Source: a virus. Taken from it: a stretch of 64,000 nt of DNA. Shown in pieces: positions 5,470-53,414 of this stretch. Each line of letters begins with the position of its first letter. Position 1 is the first letter of the stretch. A program made the translations under genes and the position numbers. Under the pieces are notes generated by a model. That model was not told the origin of the DNA, did no database searches, and saw only the letters and a program-made list of their open reading frames with translations. The stretch lies in IMG/VR virus record IMGVR_UViG_3300027969_002424, positions 1 to 64,000 of that record, one strand, 5' to 3'.

Positions 5470-5910
5470 TTACGCTCGGGCTTTCTTTAGAGTACTACGA
5501 ATCATCCATTGATGTTTTTCGTGAGCATCTAGCCTCTCAGCGATAAAGTTTGCTATACCTTGTTTGTTTTCTTGTGTAGCTGAAGCAAAGCAATGGTTGA
5601 GTAAATCAATCATCTTACTGTTATCTTCGAATAATTCAGCAAACATTAATTCAGCACGAGGAATTTTAAGTTGGTCTTGAATGATAGATAATTCAGCGTA
5701 GCGTGTTAAACTGCCGGGTGCATAACTATCCAATGTACGAATGTATTCAGCAACTTTATCTACTGCACTATATACTTCTTCATAGAAATTACCAAAGAAT
5801 TCGTGATATTCAGGGAAGTCAGGTCCTTCAACATTCCAATGAAAGTTCTGTGCTTTGATGGATAGTGAATTAACGCTAGCCAATAATACTTTTAAATCTT
5901 CTGCTAACAT
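5470..5910 (-). CDS. dps: Dps/ferritin-like DNA-protection protein
   Basis: 146 residues, the usual Dps length. The conserved ferroxidase-region pattern NFHWNVEGPDFPEYHEFFGNFYEE begins near residue 22, with the His and the Asp/Glu ligands expected at the Dps dimer interface, followed by DKVAEYIRTLDSYAPGS. Dps dodecamers bind DNA and oxidise Fe(II) with H2O2. Its stop lies 1 nt past the endonuclease start, and its start overlaps the stop of the next gene upstream. Together with the superoxide dismutase and ErpA-like genes it suggests that the phage manages oxidative or iron stress. Confidence 0.85.
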   Translation of the reverse strand: MLAEDLKVLLASVNSLSIKAQNFHWNVEGPDFPEYHEFFGNFYEEVYSAVDKVAEYIRTLDSYAPGSLTRYAELSIIQDQLKIPRAELMFAELFEDNSKMIDLLNHCFASATQENKQGIANFIAERLDAHEKHQWMIRSTLKKARA

Positions 5911-7922
5911 TATTGCTGTCCTTGTTGTTGTAGTAACTGTTTTGCCTTTTCTACACTAAGCATTGGGCGAGGATGTGATCCATCTATAATACTTTGTAGA
6001 TATTCTGCACTATAACCACTTGGTGCTTTTGCTGCTGGTTGTTCATCTGATGGTGCTACTTGAGTAGCAACTGGTTTACCAGTTAAACGATTAATACCAG
6101 GATCTTGATCTGGTAGTACACGACCGTGTGCGGCACCGCCTAATGCCATAGCACCTGCTAATGCTGCACTACCTAATGCGCTTTTCCAGCCTTCATCTAC
6201 TTGGTGTACACCTGAAAGTATTGCTGATTCTTTTATTGGTACACAGTTATTAACTCTAGTATCACCCTTCATCTTAGTGCCTTGTTTTTTATAACCAGTC
6301 CAGCATTTAGGATCCATACGTTGTTTTTCTTCATCCATAGTTTGATTACCACTAGCTTGATCAATTCTGCGTTGTAAGTTAGCTTGCTCATCCGGGGTTG
6401 GAGCACCTGGATTACCTCCTGACACTCTTAAGTTTGCAGGTTTTGGTTGTTTTGCATTACTTGGTGCTGCTGCTTGTTGACTTTGTTGTGCTAATTTACT
6501 AAATTCTTTAGCACCATAACTTACTGCCGCAGTTCTATTTCTTCTCTTTAAACTATTTAATCCATCTAGTACATCATCTATTGCATCTTTAGCATCATCG
6601 ACCGTTCTAAAAGATGATGGTCCAGATGATGGTGCGGCTGCTTGCCCTGCACCACCTGATGCTGCACCAGCTGATGGTGCGTATCCTCTACCGCCACTTG
6701 CTGCTGACATGCCTGAACCTATTCTACTAGCTGGTACATTACTAGTTGTAGCTGCATTGCTTGTAGTTTGTGGTGCTGATGCTCTGGTTTCAGGATTGAC
6801 TTCACCAGTGTGACCCACATGTTGCATAGCTTGATTGGCTCTTGATGCGTCATAACCTGTCATTTTACCGCCACCGTATGCATCTTTCATTCCGGCATAT
6901 GTTCCTTTTACACTACCAATTGCATCACCTACCCCACCCGCCATACGACCCAATAATCCTTGTTTGGGTTGTGCCGGCTGAACCGGTAACGGCTTTGCAG
7001 CAGGAAGTTTAAAGTTAGTAAATAAATTATTCAATGTCTCCTGTGGTACACCTGCTTTAATCATAATATCTGCAATTTGATCACTATCGGTTGGCTTATT
7101 TGCTTTATTCCATGCTTGCAATAATTTGTCAGCAGTAATCTTTGTTGTTAAGTTTTGCCCTTTGGTTTTAGCCCAATCTAGTATACCTTCATCAACTTGT
7201 TTTTTATGCTCATTAACTATTCTACCAATTAATCTATAAATTTGTGATTCAGATAGTTCAAATGATTCATTTCTCATTTGTAGACCATTGACTTCACCCG
7301 GCTTAGCAGGAACTCTTTTTGGTGCTATCGCTGATAGTGCAGAAGTAGCCGTAGTTGGTGGTTTAGGTTGTACTCTAGGAAATTTACTAAAATCACCTGT
7401 ATCTGTTCTTGTACCATCTGATGGACGACCAACAAGTTCTGTACCTTTGTTTAATGCAGCAGTTGCAGCAGCTTGTCTTTGTTGTCTTGCTGCTTGTGCA
7501 GCTTGTCCTGCAGGAGTAGTTGGTTCTTCTGCTGCTGAAACTGATGGATCTGCACTTGTTGATTGTTTTAATCCTGAAGCTGCAACTGGATTAGGAGTGC
7601 TAAACATATCTTTAACTTTGCCAATTGCTGTTCTATTGTTGCCGCCACCTACTAAGTTAGCAGCACCACCTGCTGATTGAATCTCTTGTGCGCTTTTGAA
7701 AATTTGTTGAATTTGTTGAGGGTCAACTGCAACTCCTTCTTTAATTTTTTTTGCATCATTATCAAATTGTTTTTTAGTAGCAGTATTGATACCTTTAAAA
7801 CGTTTGTCGCCTTTTTTGAAGTCACCTTCACTATCAGCTTTGCTAGCATTAGCCGCAGCAGCAGTTTTGTATTTTGCCAACTTGTCGTTAGATAGTTCTG
7901 CTAAAAATTCATTGGTTCTCAT
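5910..7922 (-). CDS. Large Ala/Gly-rich probable internal virion protein
   Basis: 670 residues of low-complexity Ala/Gly/Gln/Pro sequence around a few structured blocks. The leader MRTNEFLAEL matches the T4 capsid-targeting pattern. Residues 215-310 look folded (helices around SQIYRLIGRIVNEHKK and an ITADKLLQAWNKA block). Residues 536-566 hold a conserved Cys-pair block (KCWTGYKKQGTKMKG then VNNCVPIKES). Residues 575-599 are VDEGWKS followed by a hydrophobic Ala/Gly segment that recurs in the next gene. L/I/V-x-E sites resembling prohead-protease cleavage points occur at 7-9, 60-62, 243-245, 563-565 and 575-577. I infer a packaged, possibly membrane-penetrating protein; no enzyme domain was found. 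Confidence 0.5.
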   Translation of the reverse strand: MRTNEFLAELSNDKLAKYKTAAAANASKADSEGDFKKGDKRFKGINTATKKQFDNDAKKIKEGVAVDPQQIQQIFKSAQEIQSAGGAANLVGGGNNRTAIGKVKDMFSTPNPVAASGLKQSTSADPSVSAAEEPTTPAGQAAQAARQQRQAAATAALNKGTELVGRPSDGTRTDTGDFSKFPRVQPKPPTTATSALSAIAPKRVPAKPGEVNGLQMRNESFELSESQIYRLIGRIVNEHKKQVDEGILDWAKTKGQNLTTKITADKLLQAWNKANKPTDSDQIADIMIKAGVPQETLNNLFTNFKLPAAKPLPVQPAQPKQGLLGRMAGGVGDAIGSVKGTYAGMKDAYGGGKMTGYDASRANQAMQHVGHTGEVNPETRASAPQTTSNAATTSNVPASRIGSGMSAASGGRGYAPSAGAASGGAGQAAAPSSGPSSFRTVDDAKDAIDDVLDGLNSLKRRNRTAAVSYGAKEFSKLAQQSQQAAAPSNAKQPKPANLRVSGGNPGAPTPDEQANLQRRIDQASGNQTMDEEKQRMDPKCWTGYKKQGTKMKGDTRVNNCVPIKESAILSGVHQVDEGWKSALGSAALAGAMALGGAAHGRVLPDQDPGINRLTGKPVATQVAPSDEQPAAKAPSGYSAEYLQSIIDGSHPRPMLSVEKAKQLLQQQGQQ

Positions 7923-7924
7923 AA

Positions 7925-10030
7925 TTATGCTTTCTTATTTTTGATAGATTTTTTGCTTTCGTATGCTATAGAAGCACCGGGTCTAGAAGAAGATGTATAT
8001 CCTCTATCTTGTAATCTTGCTGGTTCATCACCAGTAGCTGAATATGGAGTGTTACTTAGATTGTTTGAATCATGTTGTCTCTGATATTCTTGGTTAGATG
8101 CATCCATTTCATCTTTACTAACTAATGGAGGTTGAACATCTGCACGATGTAATTTGAAATTATAAAACTTGATACCTTTTGATTTCATAAAATCTTTAAC
8201 TGCTTCTGAAGCCTGTCCCGGGGAGTTATATTCTGTTCCAAGATTGATATCTTTTGTAATTGATTTACCATCTACTTGAAAAGTAATTTGAGCAACAATA
8301 GGTTGTATTTCATGTGCATGTGCTCCTGCCCCGCCCAATGCAGCAGCACCTGCTAGTGCAGCACCTGCTAAATTACTTTTCCAACCTTCTTCTACTTTTT
8401 TCTTAGCAGCATCCCATGCAGCATCAGTCTTTACATTGTATTCTTTGCCACCAGCGCCAATGTCAGCAACTCTGCTACCAATATCTTTTTTAGTTTTTAC
8501 AACAGCTTTATTGTGTTTGTTCACACTCTTTTGCATTAATTTACCGAAGTCTGGATTGCGTTTAAGGGCCCGTTCATCTTCTGGACTTCTTGAACTTGCT
8601 GCTGCTGTTCTCAAATCACCTAAGTCAAATGCTTCCCTCATTCCTGCTACTTTGCTACCTTGAGTGTTAGCTGCGGTACCGGTACGGCTGGCTTTCATCT
8701 TATCTCCACCGCCACCAATGTGTCTACTACCATAATCGGTCTTGTCTGCCTTGCGTGGCTTTTTATATGGTAATTGTTGAACATTACCACCTTTACTTAA
8801 AAATGCTTGTAATGCAGAATCATCTTCCGCTACACCTTCAGCACTATCAGTAGCTAATACATCTGCAACTGTGCCAATATGATCGTTTGCTACTGTGATA
8901 TAACTGTATTCCCATGCATCTAATTGATTACCTTGCTTCAACATCTGATGTATCTGCTTGCAATTCTTTGCAATATTACGCAACTCTCCCATAGCCATTT
9001 GTGGAATCTGTTCTCCACCATCACTATCTTCGTATGCAAGTCCACCGGCGATAACACCAGCACCTTCCGTTACCCCTTGCTCTGCTTGATCCATGTACCA
9101 TTTAAGAATTTTTAGTAATTCAGTAAGTGATTCTTGCCCTTCAGGATTACAGTAGTTCTTAGCCATTCTAGCTAAGTCGTACATTGTTCGTAAGTTGCTG
9201 GTGCTTACATCACCTTCATTCATACCTATCTTACGCATCACCGCTGGAGAAGCGATTTTTTTTATCGCTTCTTTTTTTCCTACTTGTGCTGCCCTATTGC
9301 TTATTTTTTGTGATACATCATCATAATGTTTTGCCAATGGATTCATATAGCCGCCACCTAATGCATTATGCACCTCAGGCTTCATTGCTTGATTACTTTT
9401 GTTTTTAGCTAATTGTGCGGATCTTTGTAACAGATCAGAACTGAGTTCATTGATAGCATCACTATCAGGTTGCATCTCTTGACTGCTGATTAGATAATCC
9501 ATCACATTAACCATCATACCTTTTGCTGCGCCAATCTTCTCTGATACCCACTCGGGGAATTCAGATTGAACGGATAATCTCTTATCTAAATCACTAGCAG
9601 CACGGGCGATAGTGTGTAGACTGTTCTTTAATGTGTGACCTTCGTGTTCACCATGGTCTAAGTCATGCTTAACAAATCCAGTTCTTCTTAGTCTACCTTG
9701 ACCCGGGATAACGATTAAGTCTTGTTCTGCAATTTCCTCTTCGTTGACTTTTGTCATGCTTGCTTTGATTTCAGCTTTTGTTTTTCCATATTTCTTTTGA
9801 AATTCAGCAGTAGTTAACTCTGTTAAATCTATTGATAGTTCTTTAACTTTGCTTTCTGTAATGCTATTAGCGTAAGGCCCTTTCTTTTTAGCCTTCCCTT
9901 TCATTACTTGTTGTACAGGTTTCAGTCCCGGAACATTAACATTTTCACGGGTTTGAGTCATCATAGGCTTTGCTACGGTTGCGACTGACCCTGCTGTGGT
10001 TGAATTTTCTACTATTTGCTTAAATCTCAT
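7925..10030 (-). CDS. Large probable internal virion protein with repeated V-x-E-G sites
   Basis: 701 residues beginning MRFKQIVENST. Helical blocks occur at about 160-270 and 275-395. The C-terminus has a hydrophobic Ala/Gly stretch (551-573) preceded by VEEGWKS, shared with the downstream gene, and a beta-rich domain (576-640). Candidate prohead-protease motifs are IVE 6-8, ITE 57-59, IAE 100-102, MNE 270-272, VTE 320-322, VAE 400-402 and VEE 546-548, most followed by Gly, Asp or Ser. It is preceded by a textbook late promoter 23 nt upstream. Likely a packaged internal protein, perhaps cut into several pieces. Nothing indicates an enzyme. Confidence 0.5.
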   Translation of the reverse strand: MRFKQIVENSTTAGSVATVAKPMMTQTRENVNVPGLKPVQQVMKGKAKKKGPYANSITESKVKELSIDLTELTTAEFQKKYGKTKAEIKASMTKVNEEEIAEQDLIVIPGQGRLRRTGFVKHDLDHGEHEGHTLKNSLHTIARAASDLDKRLSVQSEFPEWVSEKIGAAKGMMVNVMDYLISSQEMQPDSDAINELSSDLLQRSAQLAKNKSNQAMKPEVHNALGGGYMNPLAKHYDDVSQKISNRAAQVGKKEAIKKIASPAVMRKIGMNEGDVSTSNLRTMYDLARMAKNYCNPEGQESLTELLKILKWYMDQAEQGVTEGAGVIAGGLAYEDSDGGEQIPQMAMGELRNIAKNCKQIHQMLKQGNQLDAWEYSYITVANDHIGTVADVLATDSAEGVAEDDSALQAFLSKGGNVQQLPYKKPRKADKTDYGSRHIGGGGDKMKASRTGTAANTQGSKVAGMREAFDLGDLRTAAASSRSPEDERALKRNPDFGKLMQKSVNKHNKAVVKTKKDIGSRVADIGAGGKEYNVKTDAAWDAAKKKVEEGWKSNLAGAALAGAAALGGAGAHAHEIQPIVAQITFQVDGKSITKDINLGTEYNSPGQASEAVKDFMKSKGIKFYNFKLHRADVQPPLVSKDEMDASNQEYQRQHDSNNLSNTPYSATGDEPARLQDRGYTSSSRPGASIAYESKKSIKNKKA

Positions 10031-10053: not shown

Positions 10054-10061
10054 TATTTATC
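10054..10061 (-). promoter_or_regulatory. T4-late-type promoter element GATAAATA
   Basis: Minus-strand GATAAATA followed by CTC, 23 nt before ATG 10030. The spacing fits a T4 late promoter with a short leader; GGGAAA may be the ribosome binding site. Confidence 0.7.
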
Positions 10062-13125: not shown

Positions 13126-14844
13126 TTATTTTTCGTCTAGGTAATCAAATTTAGGTTCAACAGGTAATCCGTCGCTACGCTCACGCTTTTTCATTTGTTC
13201 GCTGTCTCGTGCGGCTCTTAGTTTAGCGATAGGTGCCCCATCACCTGCTAAGTCTTTTGCCACATGAGCCATAACATCACTTTCTTTTTCCATTACAGTT
13301 GCTATACCAACACCAACGCCTAAGCTAGCTAGTGTATATTTGAGTGTGTCTACCCAATTCTTGCCGTTCATTCTTGCACCCACTGCAGGGACGATTGAGT
13401 TCAATATACCTTGCATCATTAGATTAGTTTGATAGGGTGTTAGTTGTATATTATTAGCAAGATTTATTGCGCCACCGCCTAGTAGTGCTGCTATAGCTGT
13501 AATGATTCCACCTTGTAAGTATGGATTGTGTTTACCTTCTTTAAATATATCAATCAACTTTTTGCGAACAACTGGGTCATCAGTCTTTTGTAATAAGTGT
13601 CGTGCTTTCTCTACATAGTTTTCTACTTCTTGTTCTTGTGCTTTTTGCATTACAGGTGTATAGAACTTCATAGTAGCATCAACTATTGGATCAGTTTCTT
13701 TATCTTCTTCAATAGGTTCAGTAGTAGCACCCATCTTCATTTTTTCTTGCACCGGCATTGCCTTCTTAACTTTTTTAGTATTGTACACTCCAAATTCTCC
13801 ACCACCGTTGGTTTGGCTTGTCCAACCTGGTAATGACGGTAATACTCTTTTAATCATTCTAGCATACAACGCTCTACGACCGGGTTCTGCGGCTTGGAAA
13901 TATAACAATGAAGGTTTAAATTTTTTCACATACTGAACTATAGCATTGACTACAATTCCAAACACTTCTGCGGCTGCCCCTGTACCTTCGATACCCTGTT
14001 TAACAACTGGAAATCCGCCTTTCATATCCTGTGTAATTTGTTCAAAACTAACAAATTTGCTATTTTCATATACTTCGTCTGAATCAACATAATCATATGG
14101 ACTCATGTTCTCTGGTCCAATATATGGTTCTAAGAAATCCAATTGATATTCTACTCCATTGCTAGCAGTGAAGTTAAATTTAATCATATCAGGATTACTA
14201 GTGTCCCATTGTGAAGTAGCTGTAGATGCTTTAGTATCAAAAACTTCTTGTAAATTAACATCAACACCCATGCCAGCATCTAATAGCTTAACGACATTTG
14301 CTGCTAATGCGGGGTTACTTTGTGTAGCTGGATACAAACTCATTACCATTGCAGTCTTGCGTTTCTCGTTTAGTTTAGGCCACATTGCACGAATCTCACT
14401 TGCACTGGTAATGCCAGGACCAAACTCTACTGTTGGTAGATATTCAATGTAAGCATGTTGTCCAAATGGTTTTAAATCTTTGCCTGTGTATGGTTGAAAG
14501 TATGCAGGACTTCCATCTTTCTTTGTGCCACCTGGTTTAGGTTGCTCATTCTTATCTTTTTCACTACGCACAAATATTAATACATCACTGTCAGGATTAT
14601 ACTTGCTTGTTATTTCTTGTGGTCTGAATGGACTACGAACTTGTACAAATTGTCCTTTCTTTACACCTGCTACTTTAGCAAGTTTTTCTTTGATTGCAAA
14701 AGGAAAAGGTCTTTCACTAGTATCGTCTGATGCCGCAACATATACATCAGCACCCGGAAAGGTTTGTAATGCTGATTGATATAGTGAGGCATGACCCGCA
14801 TGAAACGGGTGAAAGCCTCCGGGCATTACGACTATTGTACTCAT
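13126..14844 (-). CDS. Cytidylyltransferase-like (HxGH) multidomain protein with C-terminal hydrophobic segments
   Basis: 572 residues. The N-terminal 150 residues form a nucleotidylyltransferase fold: MPGGFHPFHAGHASLY carries the HxGH motif and VYVAASDD follows, as in NMN adenylyltransferase and cytidylyltransferases. A middle domain (about 210-370; ASNGVEYQLDFLEPY, LLYFQAAEPGRRALYARMI) is unrecognised. Residues about 430-530 include Gly/Ala-rich hydrophobic helices (ITAIAALLGGGAINLA, TLASLGVGVGIATV) that could insert in membranes. It overlaps the upstream RyR-like gene by 4 nt. It may be a packaged enzyme; NAD or phospholipid-head metabolism is one guess based on the HxGH domain alone. Confidence 0.55.
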   Translation of the reverse strand: MSTIVVMPGGFHPFHAGHASLYQSALQTFPGADVYVAASDDTSERPFPFAIKEKLAKVAGVKKGQFVQVRSPFRPQEITSKYNPDSDVLIFVRSEKDKNEQPKPGGTKKDGSPAYFQPYTGKDLKPFGQHAYIEYLPTVEFGPGITSASEIRAMWPKLNEKRKTAMVMSLYPATQSNPALAANVVKLLDAGMGVDVNLQEVFDTKASTATSQWDTSNPDMIKFNFTASNGVEYQLDFLEPYIGPENMSPYDYVDSDEVYENSKFVSFEQITQDMKGGFPVVKQGIEGTGAAAEVFGIVVNAIVQYVKKFKPSLLYFQAAEPGRRALYARMIKRVLPSLPGWTSQTNGGGEFGVYNTKKVKKAMPVQEKMKMGATTEPIEEDKETDPIVDATMKFYTPVMQKAQEQEVENYVEKARHLLQKTDDPVVRKKLIDIFKEGKHNPYLQGGIITAIAALLGGGAINLANNIQLTPYQTNLMMQGILNSIVPAVGARMNGKNWVDTLKYTLASLGVGVGIATVMEKESDVMAHVAKDLAGDGAPIAKLRAARDSEQMKKRERSDGLPVEPKFDYLDEK

Positions 14845-15284
14845 TGTTGATTGCCTGTTATTGCCTGTAATAAGGCTCTGGCTACTACACGGTCTTTTTC
14901 TTGTTCTTCATCTGATAGTTGAGCATATGGAATGTTCATCAACTTTTCGCGCTGCTGAAGTTTTGCTTCTAATTTACCGGCAGCTTTTAGTTTCTCTGTG
15001 TCATCAAATTGTTCTGGGTGTGCTACAAACGCTTTAGCAGTTACATTCCATCCTTGATGTATCGCATCACTAATCTTTTCAATATCTTTTTCACCTGCTG
15101 TAATTGCTTTCAAAGCAAATTCAGCCGACTTCATATTAGCTTTCCATCCAAATGTATTGCCAGGACTACTGCGACCATAGTGGTATGCATCATCCAATGC
15201 TTTGTCACTTATTTGTGCTAGTTGACCAATGTCCATGCTTTCGTTTAGCATGTCAATATATTTTCTAAAAAGTTCTGTACTCAT
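14841..15284 (-). CDS. RyR-domain-like small protein
   Basis: 147 residues starting MSTELFRKYIDMLNES. Its second half (ISDAIHQGWN, then MNIPYAQLSDEEQEKDRVVAR) resembles the RyR domain first named in ryanodine receptors and also found in bacterial and phage proteins, where P-Y-x-x-L-x-x-x-x-K-x-x-D-R is characteristic. Biochemical function in phages is unknown. The leader ending MLNES resembles those of other candidate packaged proteins. It overlaps the cytidylyltransferase-like gene by ATGA and follows a virion-like gene, so it is probably late. Confidence 0.5.
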   Translation of the reverse strand: MSTELFRKYIDMLNESMDIGQLAQISDKALDDAYHYGRSSPGNTFGWKANMKSAEFALKAITAGEKDIEKISDAIHQGWNVTAKAFVAHPEQFDDTEKLKAAGKLEAKLQQREKLMNIPYAQLSDEEQEKDRVVARALLQAITGNQQ

Positions 15285-15848: not shown

Positions 15849-16577
15849 TCAGACAGGTACGGGTCGCTTTTCTAATTTATAGCGTTTTCCAAGCATATGT
15901 CCATACATTAATATCAAATAGCTTAGTGTACTTTCATTGTCATAGTCAATAGAATGATTTCCGCTAGTATAGCGATATTGCCAACTATTAATTGAAGCAA
16001 TTGGGCGTCTAATATAGTCATTTAACCATATTTTCAATGCATTACTTGGAACCAATTCTTTACTTTTCTTGATGGTATCGTGCAAATCTTTAATAAAATC
16101 TCTTTCTTCAATATACTTAGATTTTAAATAAATTCTATACTTGTGCTTTGGCTCATTGACATAATACTTTGTACCAGCAAACTGCTCCAATTGCACTTCT
16201 GTGATTTTTACGGTAACTAGTCCAAGATCCTTCAATGTAAGCAACAAATCTAAATTGTTGCTGTACACTGACATAGTATCCATCTCAAGTCTGAAAGTTA
16301 CTAATCCGGGATTTTTGTTACTGTTACGCCAATCAATGAAGTTATTAAGTTCATTGATTTTCTCCATCGTTACTGCTTTTCTATCTGCTCGTACCTTGCG
16401 ATATCCGGTCTCATTCAATCTCCTAATCAACTCACCCGGAGATTTAACATAATTAGTGAATGCTAATCCATCGATAGTAAATTTAGCCCGATATCTATAG
16501 TTGTTGTAATAATTAGTTTCCTTATATTCATAAAAATCAATATTAGGAATGTTTTCAACTGACCTCAATAATCCCAT
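15849..16577 (-). CDS. Conserved hypothetical protein, 242 residues
   Basis: No domain is recognised. The protein mixes charged and aromatic residues (NYYNNYRYRAKFTIDG; WQYRYTSGNHSIDYDNEST) and ends in a basic tail. The last block, HSIDYDNESTLSYLILMYGH, looks conserved-domain-like. Its start lies 23 nt inside the 3' end of clpA, so it is the third gene of the dnaJ-clpA operon and is probably made with the chaperones. A role as Clp substrate adaptor is possible from position only. Confidence 0.55.
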   Translation of the reverse strand: MGLLRSVENIPNIDFYEYKETNYYNNYRYRAKFTIDGLAFTNYVKSPGELIRRLNETGYRKVRADRKAVTMEKINELNNFIDWRNSNKNPGLVTFRLEMDTMSVYSNNLDLLLTLKDLGLVTVKITEVQLEQFAGTKYYVNEPKHKYRIYLKSKYIEERDFIKDLHDTIKKSKELVPSNALKIWLNDYIRRPIASINSWQYRYTSGNHSIDYDNESTLSYLILMYGHMLGKRYKLEKRPVPV

Positions 16578-18816
16578 CTTCGTTCACCTTGGCTGTTAGT
16601 TTATGTGTTACTGCAAAATCAATTGCACCTTCGTTCATCACTACATTGATTGTAGCAGATTTAATACGTTCAAACAAGACTTTTTTACTTAGAGGTACCC
16701 GAATCAATTCATCAATCTTGCGACTTAATGGTCGTGCGCCCATCTTCTTATCGTATCCTTGCTCTGCCAAATACTCAACTACTGGTTCACTTAGATTCAA
16801 TACAATATCATGCTTGTCAACCAAACTCTTTTTCAAGTCATCGGTAAACTTGATAACAATCTTCTTAATCGCAAGTGTATCCAATTTGTTAAACTTGCAA
16901 ATCAAGTCAACACGATTTCTAAACTCGGGCTTGAAGAATTCTTTCAATGCTTTGTCATCTTCACCGGTCTTCTCTTGTGTGCCGAAGCCGATGTTGTTGC
17001 GTTCGCTATCACTACTACCTAAATTACTGGTCATGATAATGATACTGTTCTTACAGTTAACTTGCTTACCATTACTTCCAGTGATATGACCTTCGTCCAA
17101 CATCTGCAAGAAGATGTTAAAGATATCTGGATGTGCTTTCTCAACTTCATCAAACAACATGATCGAATGTGGGTTCTTGCTCAAGTCATTGATCAATCGT
17201 CCACCTGACACTTGACTATCACCAAACCCAACATAACCCGGGGGAGGTCCAATCAAACTACTTACGCTATGTTTTTCTGAGTATTCGCTCATGTCATACT
17301 TAAGCAACGGCATGTCTAAATTCTTGCTTAGTAGTTTAGCAAGTTCAGTCTTACCGGTACCAGTTGGTCCCAAGAACAAGAAACTACCTGTTGGCTTAGT
17401 GTCATTACCAATACCAGCAAAGTTAACATAGACTCGCTCAAGTACCTGTTGTACAGTTTCATCTTGTCCGTATAGTTTGTCTTTGATGTTTGATTCTAAA
17501 TTTTGAATCAATTCAAAGTTATCACCCTTCATTTTATCAGCAGGTACTCCAGTGAATCGTTCAACTTGGTCAAACACAAGTTCTTTAGTAATGATTGCAC
17601 CTTTGTTTTCTGCTACACGCTGTTTAGCACAAGCAGCATCAAGCAAATCAATAGATTTATCTGGGTTCTTACGGTCATGAATATAGCGGTCAGCACTTTC
17701 AACTGCTGCTTTGATTGCCTCATCAGTAATTTCAACATTGTGAAAATCATTTAGTCTAAGACTCAATCCATTAAGAATGCGAATTGTTGTATCGTGGTTA
17801 GGTTCATCAACTGAGATACGATAGAACCTACGCATCAACGCACGGTCCTTCTCAAAGCTATCATAGTATTCTTCCCATGTTGTACTAGCAATAACTTTAA
17901 GAGTACCTTTAGTAATTGCAGGTTTAATCATGTTACTGAAATCAACCGACCCATTGTTAGCACCACCTGCGCCTTGCATAGTATGTGCCTCGTCAATAAA
18001 AAGAATAGTCTTTTTCTTTGTGTTCAATGCCTCAAGTACTTGCTTAACCTTTTCCTCAAAGTCACCGCGATACTTACTACCTGCAAGTAGTGACCCAATC
18101 TCTAAACTGTATAGTTGATGGTCTTGCAAGAATTCAGGCACTTCTTTATTAATCATCATCTGTGCTAGACCTTCAGCAATTGCTGTTTTACCAACACCAG
18201 GATCACCGACCATCAATACATTACTCTTAAACCGTTTAGCAAGTACGTTAATGATATCATCAAGTTCTTTGCTACGACCAATCAATGGCTCAAGTTTACC
18301 TTGTGCTGCTAGTTGTGTCAGGTTGATTGTGTATTCTTCTAGTATCTCATCAGCTTGGTTCTCTGTTAGATTTCCAGTCTCACCATGCTTATAATGTTTT
18401 TGCCAATGTGATACAAATTCGTTTTTGTTAATTCCGTATTTCAACAAGAAATAATGTGCATGGCTATTGCCTTCTGACGCAATGCTTAAGTATAAGTCAA
18501 CAGTAGTAACCTGTCTACGACCACTAAACAATACTTGTGTGACGCAACGATTCATAACACGCTCTAAACTATTTGTTTTGCGTGGAACTACATCGTCATC
18601 TTTGCTTACGATAGCATGTAAACTATCTAAGTATGCATTAATCTCTTGATCCATTGTTTCAACGTCTGCACCAAAACTATGCAAACATTTTTTGAATGAA
18701 TTATGATTTATCAGTCCAAGTAGTAAATGTTCCACGGTTACATATTGATGTTTTCTTTCTTTAGCATAATGAATCGCTTGTTCAATAATACTATCTATTT
18801 CGGGTGAATGGTTCAT
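16555..18816 (-). CDS. clpA: ClpA-type AAA+ unfoldase of the Clp protease
   Basis: 753 residues, full ClpA length. The N-domain (1-150) contains the Clp repeat ([20 protein letters not shown]). AAA module 1 has Walker A GDPGVGKT (204-211) and Walker B ILFIDEAH (271-278). Module 2 has Walker A GPTGTGKT (483-490), IMLFDEVE (552-559) and the sensor-2 GARPLSR region. An IGF tripeptide at 609-611 is the ClpP-docking loop, so it should feed a ClpP barrel, and a phage ClpP is encoded at 51.2 kb. The start overlaps dnaJ by ATGA. With the ClpS gene at 54.5 kb the N-end-rule branch is also represented. Confidence 0.95.
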
Positions 18817-19616
18817 TTTTGATTCCTTTGTTGTTTGTATGCTGCAATAGTATTTACTAATTGTTCGTCTATGATATCAGGTATGAATGGCTTAAACAAT
18901 ATAATTTGGTCTCCGTAAACTGTTGAGTTAGGTATAGGCATCCCATGCCCTGCTAATTTTAATTGCATATATGGTTGTGTTTTTGGTTTAACTGTAACCT
19001 CTAATGTCTTTCCAGACAATGTTGTGAATTCAAAAGTTGTTCCAACAATTAAATCTAATACTGATATCGGGTGATTACATGATAAATCATTACCTTGTCT
19101 ATCATATTTAAGATGGTTCTCCACTCTGAAATCTACCATTAAACTAGCACCATCTATGACATTATCAATACGCATCTGATTGCCGTTGTTAATTCCTTTA
19201 GGTACTTGGATAGTAATAGCATGAGTGTTAGTGGGTGTTTGTAATTTTAATATTTGCTCTCCACCATAATATGCTTGTTCAAGTGTGATTCCTACTGTGG
19301 TTCTAAATGTTTGTGGTTGTTTGCGCTGTTGGCTAAACGGGTCAAACGGGTTGCCTCCGCCAAACATCTGACTAAAGATATGTTCAAACCCTGGGGGAAC
19401 ACCAGCTTGCTGATGAAATCCTTGGGGAGCAGGATTGTCGTATTGTTGTCGTTTGTTTGTATCGCTTAGTGTATCATAAGCGGCTTGAATATCTTGGAAT
19501 TTAGCCTTGTCTCCGCCCTTGTCAGGATGATGCTGACTGGCTAGTTTCCTATATGCTTTTTTAATTTCGTCAGGTGATGCGTTTTTAGCTACACCTAATG
19601 TAGTATAATGATCCAT
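18813..19616 (-). CDS. cbpA: DnaJ-family cochaperone, CbpA type
   Basis: 267 residues. The J-domain spans 1-65 with the catalytic HPD at 30-32; a Gly/Phe/Gln-rich linker ([20 protein letters not shown]) follows, then the two-lobed C-terminal substrate-binding domain ([16 protein letters not shown]... and GHGMP). The zinc finger of true DnaJ is absent, as in CbpA. It stimulates a host DnaK, since no DnaK is in the window. A perfect TTGACA-17-TATAAT promoter ends 6 nt before the ATG with no ribosome binding site, suggesting a leaderless, early-type message that continues into clpA. Confidence 0.93.
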
Positions 19617-28715: not shown

Positions 28716-29060
28716 TCACTCCATCATGTCATAGCTTGGCTGAAAACTGCTTCCACAACCGCAAGTTGTCTGTGCATTTGGGTTACTAATAGTGAATTGA
28801 CTACCGGATAAGTCATCTTTAAAATCAACTTCTGCTCCGGCAACATATTGCATACTCATACTATCTACTAAAATCGTAGTAGATCCAGCTGGAATAGCCC
28901 AATCATCTTCGTTTTGTACTTCATCTAGTGTGAATCCATAACTCATTCCTGAGCATCCTCCACCTTGTACATACATGCGTAATCTTAATGCAGGATTTCC
29001 CTCTTCTGCTATTACTTCTAATATCTTTGCTCTTGCGTTTTCTGTAACTGTTAAGTTCAT
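28716..29060 (-). CDS. erpA: A-type iron-sulfur carrier (ErpA/IscA-like)
   Basis: 114 residues from ATG 29060, preceded by AAGGA. The upstream ATG at 29153 lies within the preceding gene and was rejected. The three cluster-binding Cys residues are present as [11 protein letters not shown] (first) and the C-terminal TTCGCGSSF (two). [20 protein letters not shown] and [10 protein letters not shown] are diagnostic. The length equals E. coli ErpA. A-type carriers deliver Fe-S clusters to apo-enzymes; a phage copy could mature its own radical SAM protein (50.2 kb) or host enzymes. It lies directly downstream of the kinase-like gene, one base from its stop. Confidence 0.92.
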
Positions 29061-30159: not shown

Positions 30160-30710
30160 AGACTCTTACCCCAACGGGTATTAATCACATTCCAGTTTAT
30201 GATTTTCCACTGTTCTTTGATGTACTTTTTCTTATCACTGCCGTAATCTAATATGAAAGCATGTTCCCACCAGTCAATCAATAACAATATGTCATTGCGT
30301 ACTTGATGATTTACTATCGTTTTAATCTTGCCGTCTGTAGCTAAGTATATCCAACCACTACCCTGTATCTTCATGGCCTCAATCTCAAACTCAGACTTCA
30401 TGTTATCATAATCACCGTAATGTTTATTAACGAATCCCATCATAGGGCCGTTGGGCTTGTTATTGTTTCTCACTTCACGGAACTGCGGGAATAATGTATT
30501 ATGCAGGAAAGCGCCTGCATAGTTGAAATCTCTATCACCCTCTTTATTATTGTATCGTTCAGCATACCCGTGGGCTAGTTTCCCATAGTGCAAATCCAAT
30601 GTGTCTTTGGATAGTACAGGACTGACTTCAGCCGGAGTGAAGTTTAAGGGTATGATTTCTATGTCTTGAGGCTTACTCTTTTCCTCAAGCAATGTAATAA
30701 TGTCACGCAT
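30156..30710 (-). CDS. sod: Fe/Mn superoxide dismutase with N-terminal leader
   Basis: 184 residues. Following the leader MRDIITLLEEK, the SOD sequence is nearly complete: LSKDTLDLHYGKLAHGY (H41), NYAGAFLHNTLFPQF (H70), IQGSGWIYL and IDWWEHAFILDY (D146, H150). The four metal ligands are thus all present. The protein would dismutate superoxide to H2O2 and O2. Residues 1-20 have no counterpart in cellular SOD and match the packaged-protein leader. A late CATAAATA is 6 nt upstream of the ATG. The C-terminal half of the fold is slightly shortened compared with the usual 190-200 residues. Confidence 0.9.
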   Translation of the reverse strand: MRDIITLLEEKSKPQDIEIIPLNFTPAEVSPVLSKDTLDLHYGKLAHGYAERYNNKEGDRDFNYAGAFLHNTLFPQFREVRNNNKPNGPMMGFVNKHYGDYDNMKSEFEIEAMKIQGSGWIYLATDGKIKTIVNHQVRNDILLLIDWWEHAFILDYGSDKKKYIKEQWKIINWNVINTRWGKSL

Positions 30711-30716: not shown

Positions 30717-30724
30717 TATTTATG
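30717..30724 (-). promoter_or_regulatory. T4-late-type promoter element CATAAATA
   Basis: Minus-strand CATAAATA, 6 nt before the SOD start ATG 30710. Confidence 0.55.
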
Positions 30725-32013: not shown

Positions 32014-32043
32014 AGTATAATGTATTTGTTGATTACTAATCAA
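32014..32043 (-). promoter_or_regulatory. Candidate sigma-70 promoter, -10 box 6 nt before start
   Basis: Minus-strand TTGATT (32038-32043), an 18-nt spacer, then TATACT (32014-32019); 6 nt before ATG 32007. Confidence 0.4.
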
Positions 32044-32612
32044 GTTTTATGGATGAATGGTCCGTAAATCTTTTCAAGTTCTTGGATAGTTTGAGCAACA
32101 GTACTATCTTCATGCTTTACTGCAATGCCACCTGCACTACTCCATGCATCTAAATATTTGCCATAATCATCTACTAGTACATTTGGGATGCCACCATTTA
32201 ATGCATGTTTGTACTTTGCACCAGTGAATATTGCACTACCACTAGTTCCCGGGTTATATTGGTCTAGCCAATCTTTTTTAGCTTCTATGCTAGCCTTCGC
32301 ATACGGACCGCGCAACGGAGCAGACAATACGGTGAACGGGATTTTATTATCATTTAGCCACATTACAATACGCATACCACCTGTTAGTGGCTTTAAGTCT
32401 CTAAAAAACTGATAAACTTGTTCCGGGCTACTTGTTGCTAATGCTTGTATATCTTCTTCTCGTCTTGGAATCTCTTTGTAACTAGAAACCCCATGCTTTC
32501 CAGCCCAGGCGCCAAAGAAATCTGCTTGAACTCCATCCATATCTAGGTATAGATGTGGCATCTTTGCTTCTGGTTCAGACTCAATTTCTTCTAATAATTC
32601 TCGTATACGCAT
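32040..32612 (-). CDS. HAD-type 5'-nucleotidase-like protein with packaged-protein leader
   Basis: 190 residues from ATG 32612, giving the leader MRIRELLEEIES. The adjacent ATG at 32615 is one codon longer, but its gap to the late element would be only 2 nt. The phosphatase core starts at LYLDMDGVQADFFGAW (D-x-D-G-V nucleophile motif I), then FTVLSAPLRGP (motif II) and NVLVDDYGKYLDAW (acidic motif IV). This resembles 5'(3')-deoxyribonucleotidases. It could dephosphorylate nucleotides, or the leader suggests delivery with the DNA. GATAAATA is 5 nt upstream. Confidence 0.68.
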   Translation of the reverse strand: MRIRELLEEIESEPEAKMPHLYLDMDGVQADFFGAWAGKHGVSSYKEIPRREEDIQALATSSPEQVYQFFRDLKPLTGGMRIVMWLNDNKIPFTVLSAPLRGPYAKASIEAKKDWLDQYNPGTSGSAIFTGAKYKHALNGGIPNVLVDDYGKYLDAWSSAGGIAVKHEDSTVAQTIQELEKIYGPFIHKT

Positions 32613-32617: not shown

Positions 32618-32625
32618 TATTTATC
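32618..32625 (-). promoter_or_regulatory. T4-late-type promoter element GATAAATA
   Basis: Minus-strand GATAAATA, 5 nt before ATG 32612 (2 nt before the alternative ATG 32615). Confidence 0.55.
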
Positions 32626-47893: not shown

Positions 47894-48139
47894 TTAACCG
47901 TGTTTTAAAACAAACCATACCTCATCACTATTAGTATTAATTCGTATTTCAGTCAAAGTACGGTATTCACCACTAAATATGAATTCTGTATCGTAATTAA
48001 ATTTGCTCTTTAAAAATTTTTTGATATTGGTATGATACTCAACTGTACTTTCAGGGTTTGTTACTGGTCCGATTAATTTATAAAATGCATTTGTAACATT
48101 TTCATTTTTGGTAGGCCTAACCATGTCAATTATAATCAT
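47894..48139 (-). CDS. Hypothetical protein, 81 residues
   Basis: From ATG 48139, overlapping the SWIM-gene stop (ATGA): MIIIDMVRPTKNENVTNAFY, then IKKFLKSKFNYDTEFIFSGE and VWFVLKHG. A small alpha/beta protein, not recognised. Confidence 0.5.
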   Translation of the reverse strand: MIIIDMVRPTKNENVTNAFYKLIGPVTNPESTVEYHTNIKKFLKSKFNYDTEFIFSGEYRTLTEIRINTNSDEVWFVLKHG

Positions 48140-48468
48140 ACTAATTCTGCTATATGTTTGCAAGTGCCACGGAATGTATATCCAGGGCAGGTGCATGACT
48201 TTTCTTCTGTGTCAATAGAGTACACCTGACCCTTGCTACCGGACACTTTGATAATTGTACTCTTTTCTTTAACCTTTTTAAAGGGATTTGGGTTAAGTGC
48301 TACAAACTTACGACCACGCTTGTCAATAGTCAGTGGTGTTTTGAAATAGAGTGGCGTAGTAGAACCCTGCTTGATGTATGCAAGCACCTTGGTACCATCA
48401 AGCAAATATTTATGATTGGGCTGAACATCTCCCGACCATACTGTTGTTTCTACTACTGCTTCCATCAT
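48136..48468 (-). CDS. SWIM zinc-finger protein
   Basis: 110 residues. The C-terminus SCTCPGYTFRGTCKHIAEL is a SWIM finger (C-x-C-x(n)-C-x-H). The N-terminal 80 residues (HKYLLDGTKVLAYIKQGS; KFVALNPNPFKKVKEKST; VSGSKGQVYSIDTEEKS) form a beta-rich region. SWIM fingers bind DNA or proteins and occur in helicases and recombination regulators. The start overlaps the upstream stop (TAATG). Likely an early DNA-transaction or host-takeover factor. Confidence 0.75.
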   Translation of the reverse strand: MMEAVVETTVWSGDVQPNHKYLLDGTKVLAYIKQGSTTPLYFKTPLTIDKRGRKFVALNPNPFKKVKEKSTIIKVSGSKGQVYSIDTEEKSCTCPGYTFRGTCKHIAELV

Positions 48469-48671
48469 TAAACCTTAAACAAATCGTTGAGTGAAGTCCA
48501 CGGAACAGTGGAATAGTTACTATCATAACTATCATTCACCAGTCGATACTTACGGCCCATGGATTTTATATACTCGCCCTGACCGTCAGTATAAACCCGT
48601 CGCATTTCTGTATAGGTGTTTTTCACAACTCCGTCCAGTAGCGCACGACAGGTAATTTTACGCTTGTTCAT
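48468..48671 (-). CDS. Hypothetical basic protein, 67 residues
   Basis: MNKRKITCRALLDGVVKNTY, TEMRRVYTDGQGEYIKSMGR and a tail SDSNYSTVPWTSLNDLFKV-like. Many basic and Tyr residues. It overlaps the SWIM-finger gene by one base. Not recognised. Confidence 0.5.
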   Translation of the reverse strand: MNKRKITCRALLDGVVKNTYTEMRRVYTDGQGEYIKSMGRKYRLVNDSYDSNYSTVPWTSLNDLFKV

Positions 48672-48817
48672 TTTTCAACTCCGTACTTGGCAAGTTCCTC
48701 GAAGGTGTTGATGGTGCCATCTTCAATCAATGCAATCAAACAATCAAACTCGTCACGATCACTAGAGCCAAACTCGTCTTCCTGCTCGTAAGCTAGGGCT
48801 AGTAGTTGTTCTTTCAT
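48668..48817 (-). CDS. Hypothetical acidic protein, 49 residues
   Basis: MKEQLLALAYEQEDEFGSSD, then RDEFDCLIALIEDGTINTFE and ELAKYGVEK. Very acidic and helical. Its ATG overlaps the upstream stop as TAATG and its stop overlaps the next ATG as ATGA, so it is bracketed by translational couplings and very likely real. Small acidic proteins in early phage regions are often inhibitors of host proteins; this is inference. Confidence 0.6.
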   Translation of the reverse strand: MKEQLLALAYEQEDEFGSSDRDEFDCLIALIEDGTINTFEELAKYGVEK

Positions 48818-49729: not shown

Positions 49730-49731
49730 CC

Positions 49732-50066: not shown

Positions 50067-50069
50067 CCT

Positions 50070-50165
50070 TTAGGGTTTCATCATAAACGCAAAGTAATAG
50101 AAAAACGGGCCAAACATCACCGAAGTGATGATGGCCGCTTGAAGTAGTTCAATTAAGTATTTCAT
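50070..50165 (-). CDS. 31-residue membrane peptide
   Basis: ATG 50165 to TAA 50070: MKYLIELLQAAIITSVMFGP, then a Phe/Tyr-rich stretch and KP at the end; almost wholly hydrophobic, one TM helix. A TATACT -10 box lies exactly 6 nt before the ATG with TTGACA 17 nt further up and no ribosome binding site. The coding sequence contains a stem (catcac/gtgatg flanked by ggcc). Small early TM peptides often block superinfection or modulate host membrane proteins. Confidence 0.6.
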   Translation of the reverse strand: MKYLIELLQAAIITSVMFGPFFYYFAFMMKP

Positions 50166-50171
50166 GTTGTA

Positions 50172-50200
50172 AGTATAGCACAAAACCCATTTATTGTCAA
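50172..50200 (-). promoter_or_regulatory. Sigma-70 promoter of 31-residue membrane peptide
   Basis: Minus strand TTGACA (50195-50200), 17 nt, TATACT (50172-50177); 6 nt to the ATG. The -35 overlaps the end of the radical SAM gene. Confidence 0.8.
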
Positions 50201-51240
50201 CCGTAAGTTATATAGTCTCTTATATTGATTTTTCTTAAGGAATCTTGTTTTTTGACAAAATTATCAAAATCAGTTTGATTGTCATTCCCACTAGCAATTA
50301 AGTTAGAGTAATGATTCAAAGTTGAATTTTCTTCTTTGGTAAATTTTTCTCTAGCTGCCAAAGTAAATGAATTTACACTAGTTATCAAAAGTTCTTTTTT
50401 GTCAGCTATGTTATTGAAACTATGACCTATATTATGTTCTTTCACAAAGTTTATAATATTATCAAAATCATAAATATTCAATGCAGTAAGTGTGGTATAT
50501 AAATTGATACTAACTGCTTCATAATTGCTTGCAAATTTTTTATATTTTTCTAATACATCACAAAAAATATTCCACTTAGTGGGCCATCTCATATATTCTT
50601 GAACTTTTCCTACTCCATCTAGACTTATAGTAATTTGTATGGAGATACCTGTTTCAGCGATAGGAATTAACTCATCCATAAATGAGGTACAATTAGTATT
50701 AACTCTAATTGATTTTATATTTGGTGGCAAACTTTTTAATACTTCTTTTATATTTTTGCTATTGCTTGGTTCGCCACCAGTTAAGTCTAGTTGAGTTATT
50801 CTATCAATGGGCAATACTTTACTATTATAATAAGGAGTAGCATCTCTTATTTCATAATTAGAAGATATTAAAGATGCTATCTTAGTACTAACATGCGGAC
50901 TACAAAATTGACATGCAGTATTACAAATATTATCTAACATTAAATCTACTGTTAGATAATCAATATCAGATTGCATTTTCATATCTTCGTTATAATACAT
51001 CCTATCACTTTTTTGATTAATTTCTTCTTTTTCTTGGCACCGAACGCATTCTTTGGGAAATTTATTTTCTTTAAAAGTATTTTTTATATTTTTCATCCAG
51101 TTACTGTTTATCATTTCGCTATAACTAGAAAAAAAAGGTATATCGTTCATAACGCAACACCCACTGATCACTGCATTTGATCCAAACTCAACATAAGGTG
51201 GTGTAAGTTTAGCATAGTGATCAAGTCTAGCACAGTACAT
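50197..51240 (-). CDS. Radical SAM/twitch-domain protein
   Basis: 347 residues. The radical SAM cluster motif is NICNTACQFCSPH (C-x3-C-x2-C) around 107-119, followed by LDLTGGEPSN (GGE SAM-binding motif), RVNTNCTSF and a SLDG strand. Preceding Cys pairs (CCVMN; KECVRCQEKE) may bind an auxiliary cluster, as in SPASM/twitch enzymes. Similar proteins are widespread in T4-like aquatic phages. The reaction is unknown; peptide or tRNA/nucleotide modification are plausible. It needs an Fe-S cluster that the phage ErpA-like carrier could supply. Overlaps the clpP stop by one base. Confidence 0.85.
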   Translation of the reverse strand: MYCARLDHYAKLTPPYVEFGSNAVISGCCVMNDIPFFSSYSEMINSNWMKNIKNTFKENKFPKECVRCQEKEEINQKSDRMYYNEDMKMQSDIDYLTVDLMLDNICNTACQFCSPHVSTKIASLISSNYEIRDATPYYNSKVLPIDRITQLDLTGGEPSNSKNIKEVLKSLPPNIKSIRVNTNCTSFMDELIPIAETGISIQITISLDGVGKVQEYMRWPTKWNIFCDVLEKYKKFASNYEAVSINLYTTLTALNIYDFDNIINFVKEHNIGHSFNNIADKKELLITSVNSFTLAAREKFTKEENSTLNHYSNLIASGNDNQTDFDNFVKKQDSLRKINIRDYITYG

Positions 51241-51827
51241 TACGGACGCTTTTTCAGTACAGAATCAGCTAATCCGTATGCTACTGCTTCGGTAGCACTC
51301 ATAAAAAAGTCTCGTTCCATATCTTTAGCTAGTTCCTCGTATGTCTTACCAACACTATTGTGGTCAACATAGATTTGTGTAAGACATTTTTTCATAGTTA
51401 TAATTTCTCTGACTTGAATTTCCATGTCGGTAGCTTGACCTCGTGCGCCACCACTGGGCTGATGAATCATATGCCTTGCGTTGGGCAACATATAACGCTT
51501 ACCTTTTGCTCCCGCTTGTGCAAGCAAACTACCCATACTACATGCTTGACCCATGACGATGGTCATAACATCAGGCTTAATGAATTGCATACAATCGTAG
51601 ATTGCCATACCAGCAGTTACACTACCACCTGGGCTATTGATGTAAACACTAATATCCTTCTCGCCTTCGCTTTCTAAGTAAAGCAATTGGGCAACGACTA
51701 GATTTGCCATTTGATCGTGTACTTCGCCCTCAAGCAAAATAACACGGTCACGCAACATGCGGCTGTATATATCATAACTACGCTCACCTTTGCTTGTTTG
51801 TTCTAAAACCATTGGGACTAAACTCAT
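51240..51827 (-). CDS. clpP: ClpP protease subunit
   Basis: 195 residues from ATG 51827 (AAGGAAG upstream; frames further up cross the promoter). The catalytic triad is intact: Ser97 in [11 protein letters not shown], His122 in [10 protein letters not shown] and Asp173 in [11 protein letters not shown], matching E. coli S98/H123/D172 spacing. [17 protein letters not shown] and the N-terminal axial loop [20 protein letters not shown] are normal. It forms the tetradecameric barrel for the phage ClpX and ClpA ATPases or those of the host. Own sigma-70-type promoter. No propeptide is obvious. Confidence 0.96.
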
Positions 51828-51846
51828 ATACTTCCTTAAAATTAAA

Positions 51847-51875
51847 AGTATAACAGAAAGATTAGCTAGTTGCAA
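51847..51875 (-). promoter_or_regulatory. Sigma-70-type promoter of clpP
   Basis: Minus strand TTGCAA (51870-51875), 17 nt, TATACT (51847-51852), then AAGGAAG and ATG 51827. Confidence 0.65.
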
Positions 51876-51884
51876 CTATATTGG

Positions 51885-53414
51885 TTACCGTTTGCGTTTT
51901 TCTCTTGTACCTACTTCTTTGGGTTTTGATACTGGGTTGACGATATTTTTAGATGCAGTTGCTAATTGATCAATGCCTGCACTTTTTTCTCGTTTGGCTC
52001 TAGGTGTAGTTGTTGTCTGTTCATCATCTTTTGGCGCACCAGAACCTTTGTCAATTTTAAATGTGTAATTACCTTTTATACCAGTACTATAATATGTTTT
52101 ACCTGCTGATAGATAAACGCCTTTGATGCTTGTACCTGGATAAATTGTATTGAATTCTTGCAGTGTCCATTTACCTTTGCCTTCACTTGCTTTGGTATAC
52201 ATCTGTACTAATGCACCATTGTTTAATATATCAGCAGCAGCTTTACTAAAATTTGTTTTTTCATTTACTTCTTGTGCTGCTTTATGCGCTACTGCTGCCA
52301 TCAAGTGATAATACAAATTAACATTATCTGGGTCATCTGTGTTACGTTCTTCTGCTAACTTTGTTAAATTATCACTAAGTCCAAGTTGTCCAAGATTATC
52401 TAAACTAACAGGACCTATTTTCTTAAATGCTCTGATCATTTCAACATCGTCTGGACTAATGATACCATAACGTACACCCAGCATCAATGGAGAACCTGCT
52501 TGTCCTGCATCTTGTATCTCACGTAATATATCAACTACTTCTTTATGTTTGTTTAAGAATTTTCCACCATCCGGGGTTTCTGCTATCTTATCAATCTGAT
52601 CAATCAAATTACTTGCGCTAGCTGTAGCACCTTTGCCACCTTTTGTACTAACTAATACGCTACCACCTTGACTATTAGTTATAACGCTATCACTAAGTCC
52701 TGCTGTTTTACTATCATCAAAACTAATCAATGTCTTTTGAAATGTTCCACCTAAAAACTTATTTGCAGCTTCACCGGCATTACCGGTGTATTGACCTTTT
52801 TGCAATGCTATTGGTTGTAGTATCTCACAGAAGTAATCACGAAAAGCCGAAAAGCTAACTCCCTCAGGTGCTTCAAATGATATTGGTAATGGTTGTCCTA
52901 TTGCGATATTATGTGCTAGTGCATACAATGGACTATCTGTTCCTAAACTGCTAGCAAGTTGATTCATTATCTTTGAGATAGTTAAATCAAGTTTGTCAGT
53001 TAATAAATCTTGTGGACTTAAGCCAGCATCTGCTTTTGCTGCTGCTTTACCGCCAAACTTATATGTTGAACCATCTACTGTGAATGTGTTTGATACTTTG
53101 TTATCAGTAAGTGAGGGCTTAACTTCTTGTAGATATTGTCCAATAACAAAAGTACCAAATGAGATTATTGCAAACCCACCTGTACGTCCAGAACGACTAT
53201 TTTGCCATTGAATATCTGGAACTTGTTGTTCAATTTGAATTAATGCTTGATCTAATTCTTCGGGTGTAAATTTGCCACCACCTTCCGGGAAGAATTTAAT
53301 ATCGTTAAATATTGCTTCATCACCGTTTTCATTTTTGAAAACGTCGCCTGGTTTGCGACCTGCTAATCCTGTACTTTCGTTCAGTTGGTCTAATAATGTT
53401 ATAAATTCACGCAT
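51885..53414 (-). CDS. Large probable packaged protein with MREFITLLDQLNES leader
   Basis: 509 residues. The start resembles the T4 packaged-protein leader. Folded parts include YGIISPDDVEMIRAFKKIG and KGKWTLQEFNTIYPGTSIKG; residues about 110-140 (NTFTVDGSTYKFGGKAAAKA) and about 245-270 (GGSVLVSTKGGKGATAS) are Gly/Ser/Lys-rich. The last 60 residues are basic and disordered (TTTTPRAKREKSAGIDQLAT, ...KEVGTREKRKR). VSTKGGKG could bind phosphate, but no catalytic family is recognised. Expressed late from GATAAATA 7 nt upstream. Likely injected or head-internal. Confidence 0.5.
   Translation of the reverse strand: MREFITLLDQLNESTGLAGRKPGDVFKNENGDEAIFNDIKFFPEGGGKFTPEELDQALIQIEQQVPDIQWQNSRSGRTGGFAIISFGTFVIGQYLQEVKPSLTDNKVSNTFTVDGSTYKFGGKAAAKADAGLSPQDLLTDKLDLTISKIMNQLASSLGTDSPLYALAHNIAIGQPLPISFEAPEGVSFSAFRDYFCEILQPIALQKGQYTGNAGEAANKFLGGTFQKTLISFDDSKTAGLSDSVITNSQGGSVLVSTKGGKGATASASNLIDQIDKIAETPDGGKFLNKHKEVVDILREIQDAGQAGSPLMLGVRYGIISPDDVEMIRAFKKIGPVSLDNLGQLGLSDNLTKLAEERNTDDPDNVNLYYHLMAAVAHKAAQEVNEKTNFSKAAADILNNGALVQMYTKASEGKGKWTLQEFNTIYPGTSIKGVYLSAGKTYYSTGIKGNYTFKIDKGSGAPKDDEQTTTTPRAKREKSAGIDQLATASKNIVNPVSKPKEVGTREKRKR

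Follow-up and report, generated by a model that had tools for sequence, protein, structure and literature searches.

The internal proteins IPI, IPII and IPIII of bacteriophage T4, together with Alt, are expressed late and carry one common N-terminal propeptide of 10 residues (MKTYQEFIAE/A, the slash marking the cleavage site) ahead of unrelated mature parts, which is cut by the gp21 protease of the S77 family. The first 10 residues of IPIII are enough for head targeting, residues 4 and 7 governing targeting and residues 8 and 10 processing, and it has been suggested that this capsid targeting sequence (CTS) enables T4-like phages to take in a variety of proteins (PMC9026906). Here we describe a leader in the same register at the start of unrelated genes in a window of 64,000 nucleotides, namely positions 1-64000 of the IMG/VR record IMGVR_UViG_3300027969_002424 (full record 211,612 bp; G000). 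The gp23-type major capsid protein of this phage is nearest to those of PA5oct, Vibrio 2.275.O and the SP27 group of jumbo phages (~64-66% identity); the phage itself does not belong to the T-even phages but is a jumbo phage related to PA5oct and 121Q. Whereas T4 has three small basic internal proteins plus Alt, the leader stands here before recognisable enzymes (superoxide dismutase, nucleotidase, kinase, metallopeptidase) and, in a relative (L094), before a protein of ~860 residues; moreover, unlike in the T4 internal proteins, [LIV]xE sites recur at domain joints. We consider it very probable that the leader is a T4-type capsid-targeting propeptide on a modular, exchangeable cargo set which, on our best reading, would comprise a superoxide dismutase, a 5'-nucleotidase, a PolyVal-like kinase, a metallopeptidase and several unknowns. 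The peptide is probably a mark of enzymes that enter the head along with the viral DNA and are delivered to the host, because unrelated enzymes share a T4-like start and all close-match proteins of an isolated relative are found in virions.

Other described systems have part of this arrangement in common. The inner-body and ejection proteins of phiKZ-like phages and SPN3US likewise combine a large ejected protein load with a glutamate-specific prohead protease, but there the protease motif is SxE or AxE and the propeptides are mostly longer than 100 residues (PMC5694885). Polyvalent proteins (Iyer et al. 2017, PMC5512222) are multi-domain and predicted to be packaged and injected, and the leader-bearing protein g036 of the window is weakly similar to their PolyVal kinase; however, its Pfam score of 17.9 bits is below the curated cut-off of 27, many of the cargo proteins described here are single-domain, and the features reported in the portion of that paper available to us do not include a T4-type leader. 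In the T4-like cyanophages S-CREM2, S-SCSM1 and S-SZBM1, cytidylyltransferase/NMNAT, APH-like kinase and S-adenosylmethionine (SAM) hydrolase occur in virions. The accessible parts of the cyanophage papers report this presence, speculate on delivery and do not mention a shared leader, which we see in S-CREM2 and S-SCSM1. In the open-access papers searched, the term capsid targeting sequence was not paired with metagenomics, and its pairing with jumbo phages gave SPN3US work only; the novelty is provisional because subscription papers lay outside this search.

The preliminary description of the window had quoted eight such N-termini, and all of them are starts of real, coding-biased open reading frames on the minus strand. 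The comparison with shuffled N-termini that it had proposed reveals a strong excess: M[RK]xxxF[LI]xE is 50- to several-hundred-fold over expectation in every genome examined, with observed/expected counts of 2/0.01 in G000, 5/0.02 in the near-identical G001 (IMGVR_UViG_3300027969_000039, 303 kb) and 5/0.03, 6/0.02, 2/0.04 and 2/0.01 in four relatives of 223-374 kb, and no match was found at ~9,000 internal methionines. The tight leaders of the relatives (MRAHEFITES, MRAREFITEA, MRAKEFISEG, MRAFEFLFED) are borne by different genes. Among window families with at least three relatives, an N-terminal [LIVF]xE is kept in 5/6 (g037), 18/24 (g003), 9/13 (g036), 8/13 (g011) and 7/11 (g042) cases, as compared with 0-35% in most other families; the hydrophobic-x-Glu motif is retained in the orthologues and the remaining leader residues drift. 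On the other hand, [LIV]xE alone, found within the first 20 residues of 0.30 of genes vs ~0.2-0.27 in later stretches, was dropped as a test, being nearly uninformative. The quoted members are of unequal strength: g016 is weak, and the N-terminus of g010 is kept by near-identical relatives only. The DNA ligase g087 (LNES) and g023 were not counted because their conserved LxE near the N-terminus is probably native sequence.

All gene coordinates given here are on the minus strand. The Fe/Mn superoxide dismutase g037 (30156-30710; PF02777, E=3.7e-22) begins with MRDIITLLE/E (leader residues 1-9, 30684-30710). In the alignment with PDB entry 1ues, in which the metal-ligand regions match up, query residue 18 falls on chain residue 4; this gives an extension of ~14 residues and bears out, for solved structures, the earlier claim that cellular relatives of these enzymes have none. 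The NT5C-type HAD 5'-nucleotidase g042 (32040-32612; PF06941, 4.4e-7 from residue 21) opens with MRIRELLE/E (residues 1-9, 32586-32612), and viral NT5C homologues without the leader start directly at the domain. The metallopeptidase-like g003 (1147-1731; HELTH) starts with MLTKHIIVE/SAAIE (residues 1-9, 1705-1731). Its 80 relatives have 18 distinct N-termini, 16 of them with [LIVFY]xE, almost always as E/S, and 67 of the 80 keep HEL[TV]H; orthologue leaders read MLTKHIIVES, MKSYQIITES, MISKQFITES, MRYKEFISES and MKIHQVINES, and in relatives the same domain stands behind MRAxEFITE, MRYTEFIIES and MRSYQIINES. In g036 (29062-30159; leader residues 1-9, 30133-30159) the leader is followed by a DUF6934-like module, an internal NLDE/AE joint and the PolyVal-like kinase, which matches the PHROG kinase family (E=3.4e-10) and has the invariant kinase residues, with Pfam matches below threshold and an AlphaFold model of low confidence (predicted local distance difference test, pLDDT, 57).

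The 509-residue protein g073, of unknown fold (51885-53414; leader residues 1-13, 53376-53414), starts with MREFITLLDQLNE/STGLAGRK. Its family follows MRDILxxLxxLxE/STGLAGR, with E13-S14 near-invariant in 24 aligned relatives, and divergent members have shortened leaders (MSEFTRLFE/S or MDHRLLFE/S). In its AlphaFold model (pLDDT 79, good fold), residues 1-14 form a low-confidence segment ahead of the domain; the model has no PDB match at E<=0.001. The modular 701-residue g011 (7925-10030; leader residues 1-8, 10007-10030) begins with MRFKQIVE/N and contains the internal linkers GVTE/G and GVAE/D, while its relatives show MKISDIFES, MKINQIIVET and MKIKDICES. Next to it, g010 (5910-7922; leader residues 1-9, 7896-7922; MRTNEFLAE/L) is a low-complexity modular protein of 670 residues, whose modules are shared with other phage families of unknown function. 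Finally, g016 (14841-15284) carries the leader-like MSTELFRKYIDMLNE/S; its domain begins after the site and is fused within a larger protein in G006_018, and few relatives are available for comparison. No match to g011, g036 or g073 was found among 50,697 named phage records, and NCBIfam and PADLOC searches added nothing decisive.

The leader was then sought as exact degenerate DNA patterns in 2.9 million IMG/VR viral contigs. MRAxEFITE is present in at least 119 stretches, at at least 131 sites and in at least 121 distinct proteins. Among the matches listed, 131/131 sites are at gene starts, all 131 have Arg at position 2, where the pattern also permitted Ser, and the proteins, compared without the leader, form 13 clusters with no similarity to one another. 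The Glu, Phe, Ile, Ala and Thr codons of these sites vary synonymously, so selection acts on the peptide itself. The T4-IPIII-like pattern MKTFxxFIxEA gives 127 sites, 125 of them at gene starts, in 118 proteins of 44 unrelated clusters, and its carriers include an independent HAD nucleotidase (L359) similar to g042, GNAT acetyltransferases, a P-loop kinase and a glucosaminidase. The recurrence on unrelated proteins is real and larger than the preliminary description had claimed. As a control, MRAxEFITE was scanned in 84,980 cellular genomes (257 Gb), where only 10 matches occur, nearly all inside reading frames, which is chance level. In G001, positions 47949-48715 hold tandem small leader proteins of 125 and 130 residues (MRASEFLTE and MRAKEFITE); the largest MRAxEFITE cluster (74/121 proteins among the matches listed) consists of proteins of like size, often in adjacent copies, as are T4 ipII/ipIII.

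The leader stays constant while the domains behind it are swapped, and [LIV]xE sites are also found at internal domain joints. For instance, the g036 kinase domain follows the leader directly in L103 (MKANEFVIE/AETDT, 223 residues) or is the last domain of longer chains, where the joints read NLDE/AE, PIDE/AE, QLDE/AE, PLDE/AE, NVAE/AE and GVTE/AE. The DUF6934-like module, N-terminal or internal, is preceded by ITE/VF, LQE/VF, LDE/LF or VDE/AF, and L102 has an internal NEFITE/SS at a domain joint. Several disparate domains per polypeptide are present in g036 and its relatives L094, L096, L100 and L102. A further leader protein of the same phage (G001 72841-74523, MRFTEFISE, 560 residues) has its modules joined by five GVAE[GS] linkers, and one of these modules also occurs behind an MKTF-type leader in other viruses (L453). 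The GVAE[GS] linker was rejected as a general feature, since its enrichment is confined to the leader proteins of this phage (7 sites vs 2 elsewhere) and is not seen in the relatives.

A gp21-like protease, which the preliminary description had proposed to look for elsewhere in the genome, is present: a Peptidase_S77 gene (PF03420, E=2.8e-29; PHROG head maturation protease, E=2.5e-62) lies at 141816-142259 of the contig, in a standard head cluster of core, protease, gp22-like scaffold and gp23. The S77 protease is found in 7/9 relatives and in 13/16 large leader-bearing contigs, the remaining three measuring 117-139 kb. In the capsid protein alignment, QLLAE/SSAG stands, in the region of the mature N-terminus, at the place of the T4 gp23 cleavage site FLTE/AEIG, and PA5oct has FLVE/NASAG. 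Similar sequences are read from the T4 record in IPII/IPIII (MKTYQEFIAEA) and gp24 (MAKINELLRES), and the window leaders share the IPIII layout with one residue fewer before the site.

The link to virions comes from isolated relatives. We mapped the S-CREM2 proteomics of CsCl-purified virions (PMC10665884, Table 3) onto the S-CREM2 genome. The tight leader is carried by 4/52 virion proteins vs 0/134 other genes (p=0.0056); the four are a SAM hydrolase (MKDFDSFLEE), an APH-like kinase (MKRFDAFLTE), a cytidylyltransferase (MKNFSSFLTE) and ORF13 (MKDLHSFLTE). In S-SCSM1, the sole tight-leader gene encodes the virion-borne NMNAT (MKSFLQFLKE), giving 1/48 virion proteins vs 0/199 others, and the product of the two one-sided p-values is ~0.001. 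The leader is thus absent from the non-virion genes of both cyanophages, among which it had been asked beforehand whether it might be equally common. In PA5oct, electrospray ionisation tandem mass spectrometry (MS) flags the homologues of g037, the g036 N-terminal module, the MKSLKHFIAES family and a MRATEFLIE family. A virion-detected Cas9-like nuclease of S-CREM2 (OR473000, 7704-10313) has the leader motif RFASFMAEA at residues 18-26, so it may start at a later codon or bear an extended propeptide.

The earlier statement that most of these genes sit behind late promoters holds with a corrected box. The candidate TATAAATA is not enriched; in its place, the upstream 8-mer with the strongest enrichment is GATAAATA (19 vs 1, 29 vs 3 and 26 vs 2, forward vs reverse). 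NATAAATA lies 12-31 nt upstream of 5/8 leader genes vs 21/179 others, and such boxes also precede structural genes. The late-promoter-like boxes, all on the minus strand, are GATAAATA at 1736-1743 (g003), 10054-10061 (g011), 32618-32625 (g042) and 53422-53429 (g073, where it precedes the start in most relatives too), and NATAAATA at 30717-30724 (g037). The boxes of g011 and g037 also serve g010 and g036, which lie directly behind them. Judged from the GATAAATA boxes, the leader genes would be expressed late. For g003, g037, g042, g073 and the core gene g150 (upstream G000:140590), the box is 12-15 nt from the ATG without a Shine-Dalgarno sequence, which suggests near-leaderless late mRNAs, whereas most other boxed genes have it at -25 to -34, usually with a Shine-Dalgarno. 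Near-box genes bear the leader ~4.5 times as often as others (p=0.0012).

Taken together with T4, these data suggest the following course. Late in infection the cargo genes would be transcribed from the GATAAATA promoters, and the first 8-13 residues (M-R/K-x-x-x-hydrophobic-hydrophobic-x-E) may serve to dock the protein that bears them in the prohead core. The S77 protease encoded by the phage itself would then cut after the Glu of [L/I/V]-x-E and free the mature enzyme within the head; some of the cargo proteins would have several domains, with additional [LIV]xE sites where these join. The DNA would be packaged on top of the freed cargo, which would leave with it at infection. Head packaging, as proposed in the preliminary description, and cleavage draw strong support from the T4 analogy and from the relatives' proteomes; for this phage both are inferred by homology, and injection into the host from the T4 precedent. 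As a guess, the dismutase might act against an oxidative burst or for stability, the nucleotidase on nucleotide pools or in signal removal, and the kinase and metallopeptidase in host takeover.

Could the leader-bearing proteins rather be parts of the prohead core or scaffold that depend on the leader to assemble and, instead of reaching the host, are broken down or expelled when the head matures? T4 gp22, gp67 and gp68 have such sites and are degraded (PMC9026906), and g010 and g011 are low-complexity and scaffold-like. However, intact, conserved catalytic motifs (superoxide dismutase, HELTH, kinase) would be senseless in a scaffold, and leader-bearing enzymes persist in mature cyanophage virions. 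We therefore regard this explanation as unlikely for the set, though it may hold for g010 and g011 only. The peptide might also serve translation initiation, start-region RNA structure of late genes or intracellular targeting, the virion link being incidental; RNA-level selection on the start region is conceivable because many leader genes have the late box 12-15 nt from the ATG without a Shine-Dalgarno. Yet the residues are fixed while synonymous positions vary freely, 43/51 near-box genes have no leader, the leader genes of MKTF-type phages use more distant boxes, and in S-CREM2 the leader is exclusive to virion proteins, so that we find this quite improbable. A mere coincidence of short motifs, amphipathic N-terminal helices ending in LxE being common, would fit the frequency of [LIV]xE alone and the lack of predictive value of lax patterns for MS detection in PA5oct. 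It is opposed by the shuffles, the internal-methionine control, the viral and cellular scans and the cyanophage proteome; the unrelated clusters of the viral scan largely refute it, and we give it hardly any credence.

Several points weigh against the capsid-targeting propeptide itself. The leader is heterogeneous, and the weak members g016, g087 and g023 may not belong. The S-CREM2 test comprises four genes only, and the authors of the S-CREM2 study leave co-purification open (PMC10665884). In PA5oct, on which the proposed virion-proteome check was made, the homologues of four families are MS-flagged, but these were hand-picked, and MS-flagged genes show no enrichment of simple leader patterns (5/90 vs 10/225; second pattern test 5/8 vs 43/109, p=0.18). 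The PA5oct MS set also includes likely contaminants (ribonucleotide reductase, thymidylate synthase). PA5oct thus lends weak support only, because the plain pattern test is not significant. Finally, virion presence is read from the proteomes of relatives.

We lean slightly towards a wider interpretation, namely that the CTS leader acts throughout T4-like and gp23-type jumbo phages as an address tag that can be read from the sequence. Behind it would stand exchangeable enzymes or enzyme chains with prohead-protease sites between the domains, so that, ahead of any phage gene expression, a single head would deliver a processed mixture, specific to the lineage, of redox, nucleotide, kinase, GNAT, peptidase, cell-wall and nucleic-acid enzymes. 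If so, the injected protein repertoire of uncultured phages could be mined from sequence alone. The phage proteins that enter the cell with the genome are a largely unknown set, and host defence acts in those first minutes; with a short tag that predicts virion packaging, many genes that are listed as "hypothetical" or "auxiliary metabolic" in uncultured phages would become candidates for delivered effectors. The leader also offers an explanation for the recurrent cytidylyltransferases, kinases and SAM hydrolases of cyanophage virions, and the set would provide many natural examples for head-loading applications.

Besides the leader genes, the window contains host-like genes, recognised by family match or sequence, at 16555-19616, 5470-5910, 51240-51827 and 28716-29060 (ClpA/B-like ATPase, DnaJ-like, Dps/ferritin-like, ClpP and A-type Fe-S protein). 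Beyond the window, G000 82786-92093 and 192115-209363 hold two large clusters of proteins with CPxPWxH and CxxxCxxC motifs resembling radical-SAM/SPASM proteins, in a number unusual for a phage.

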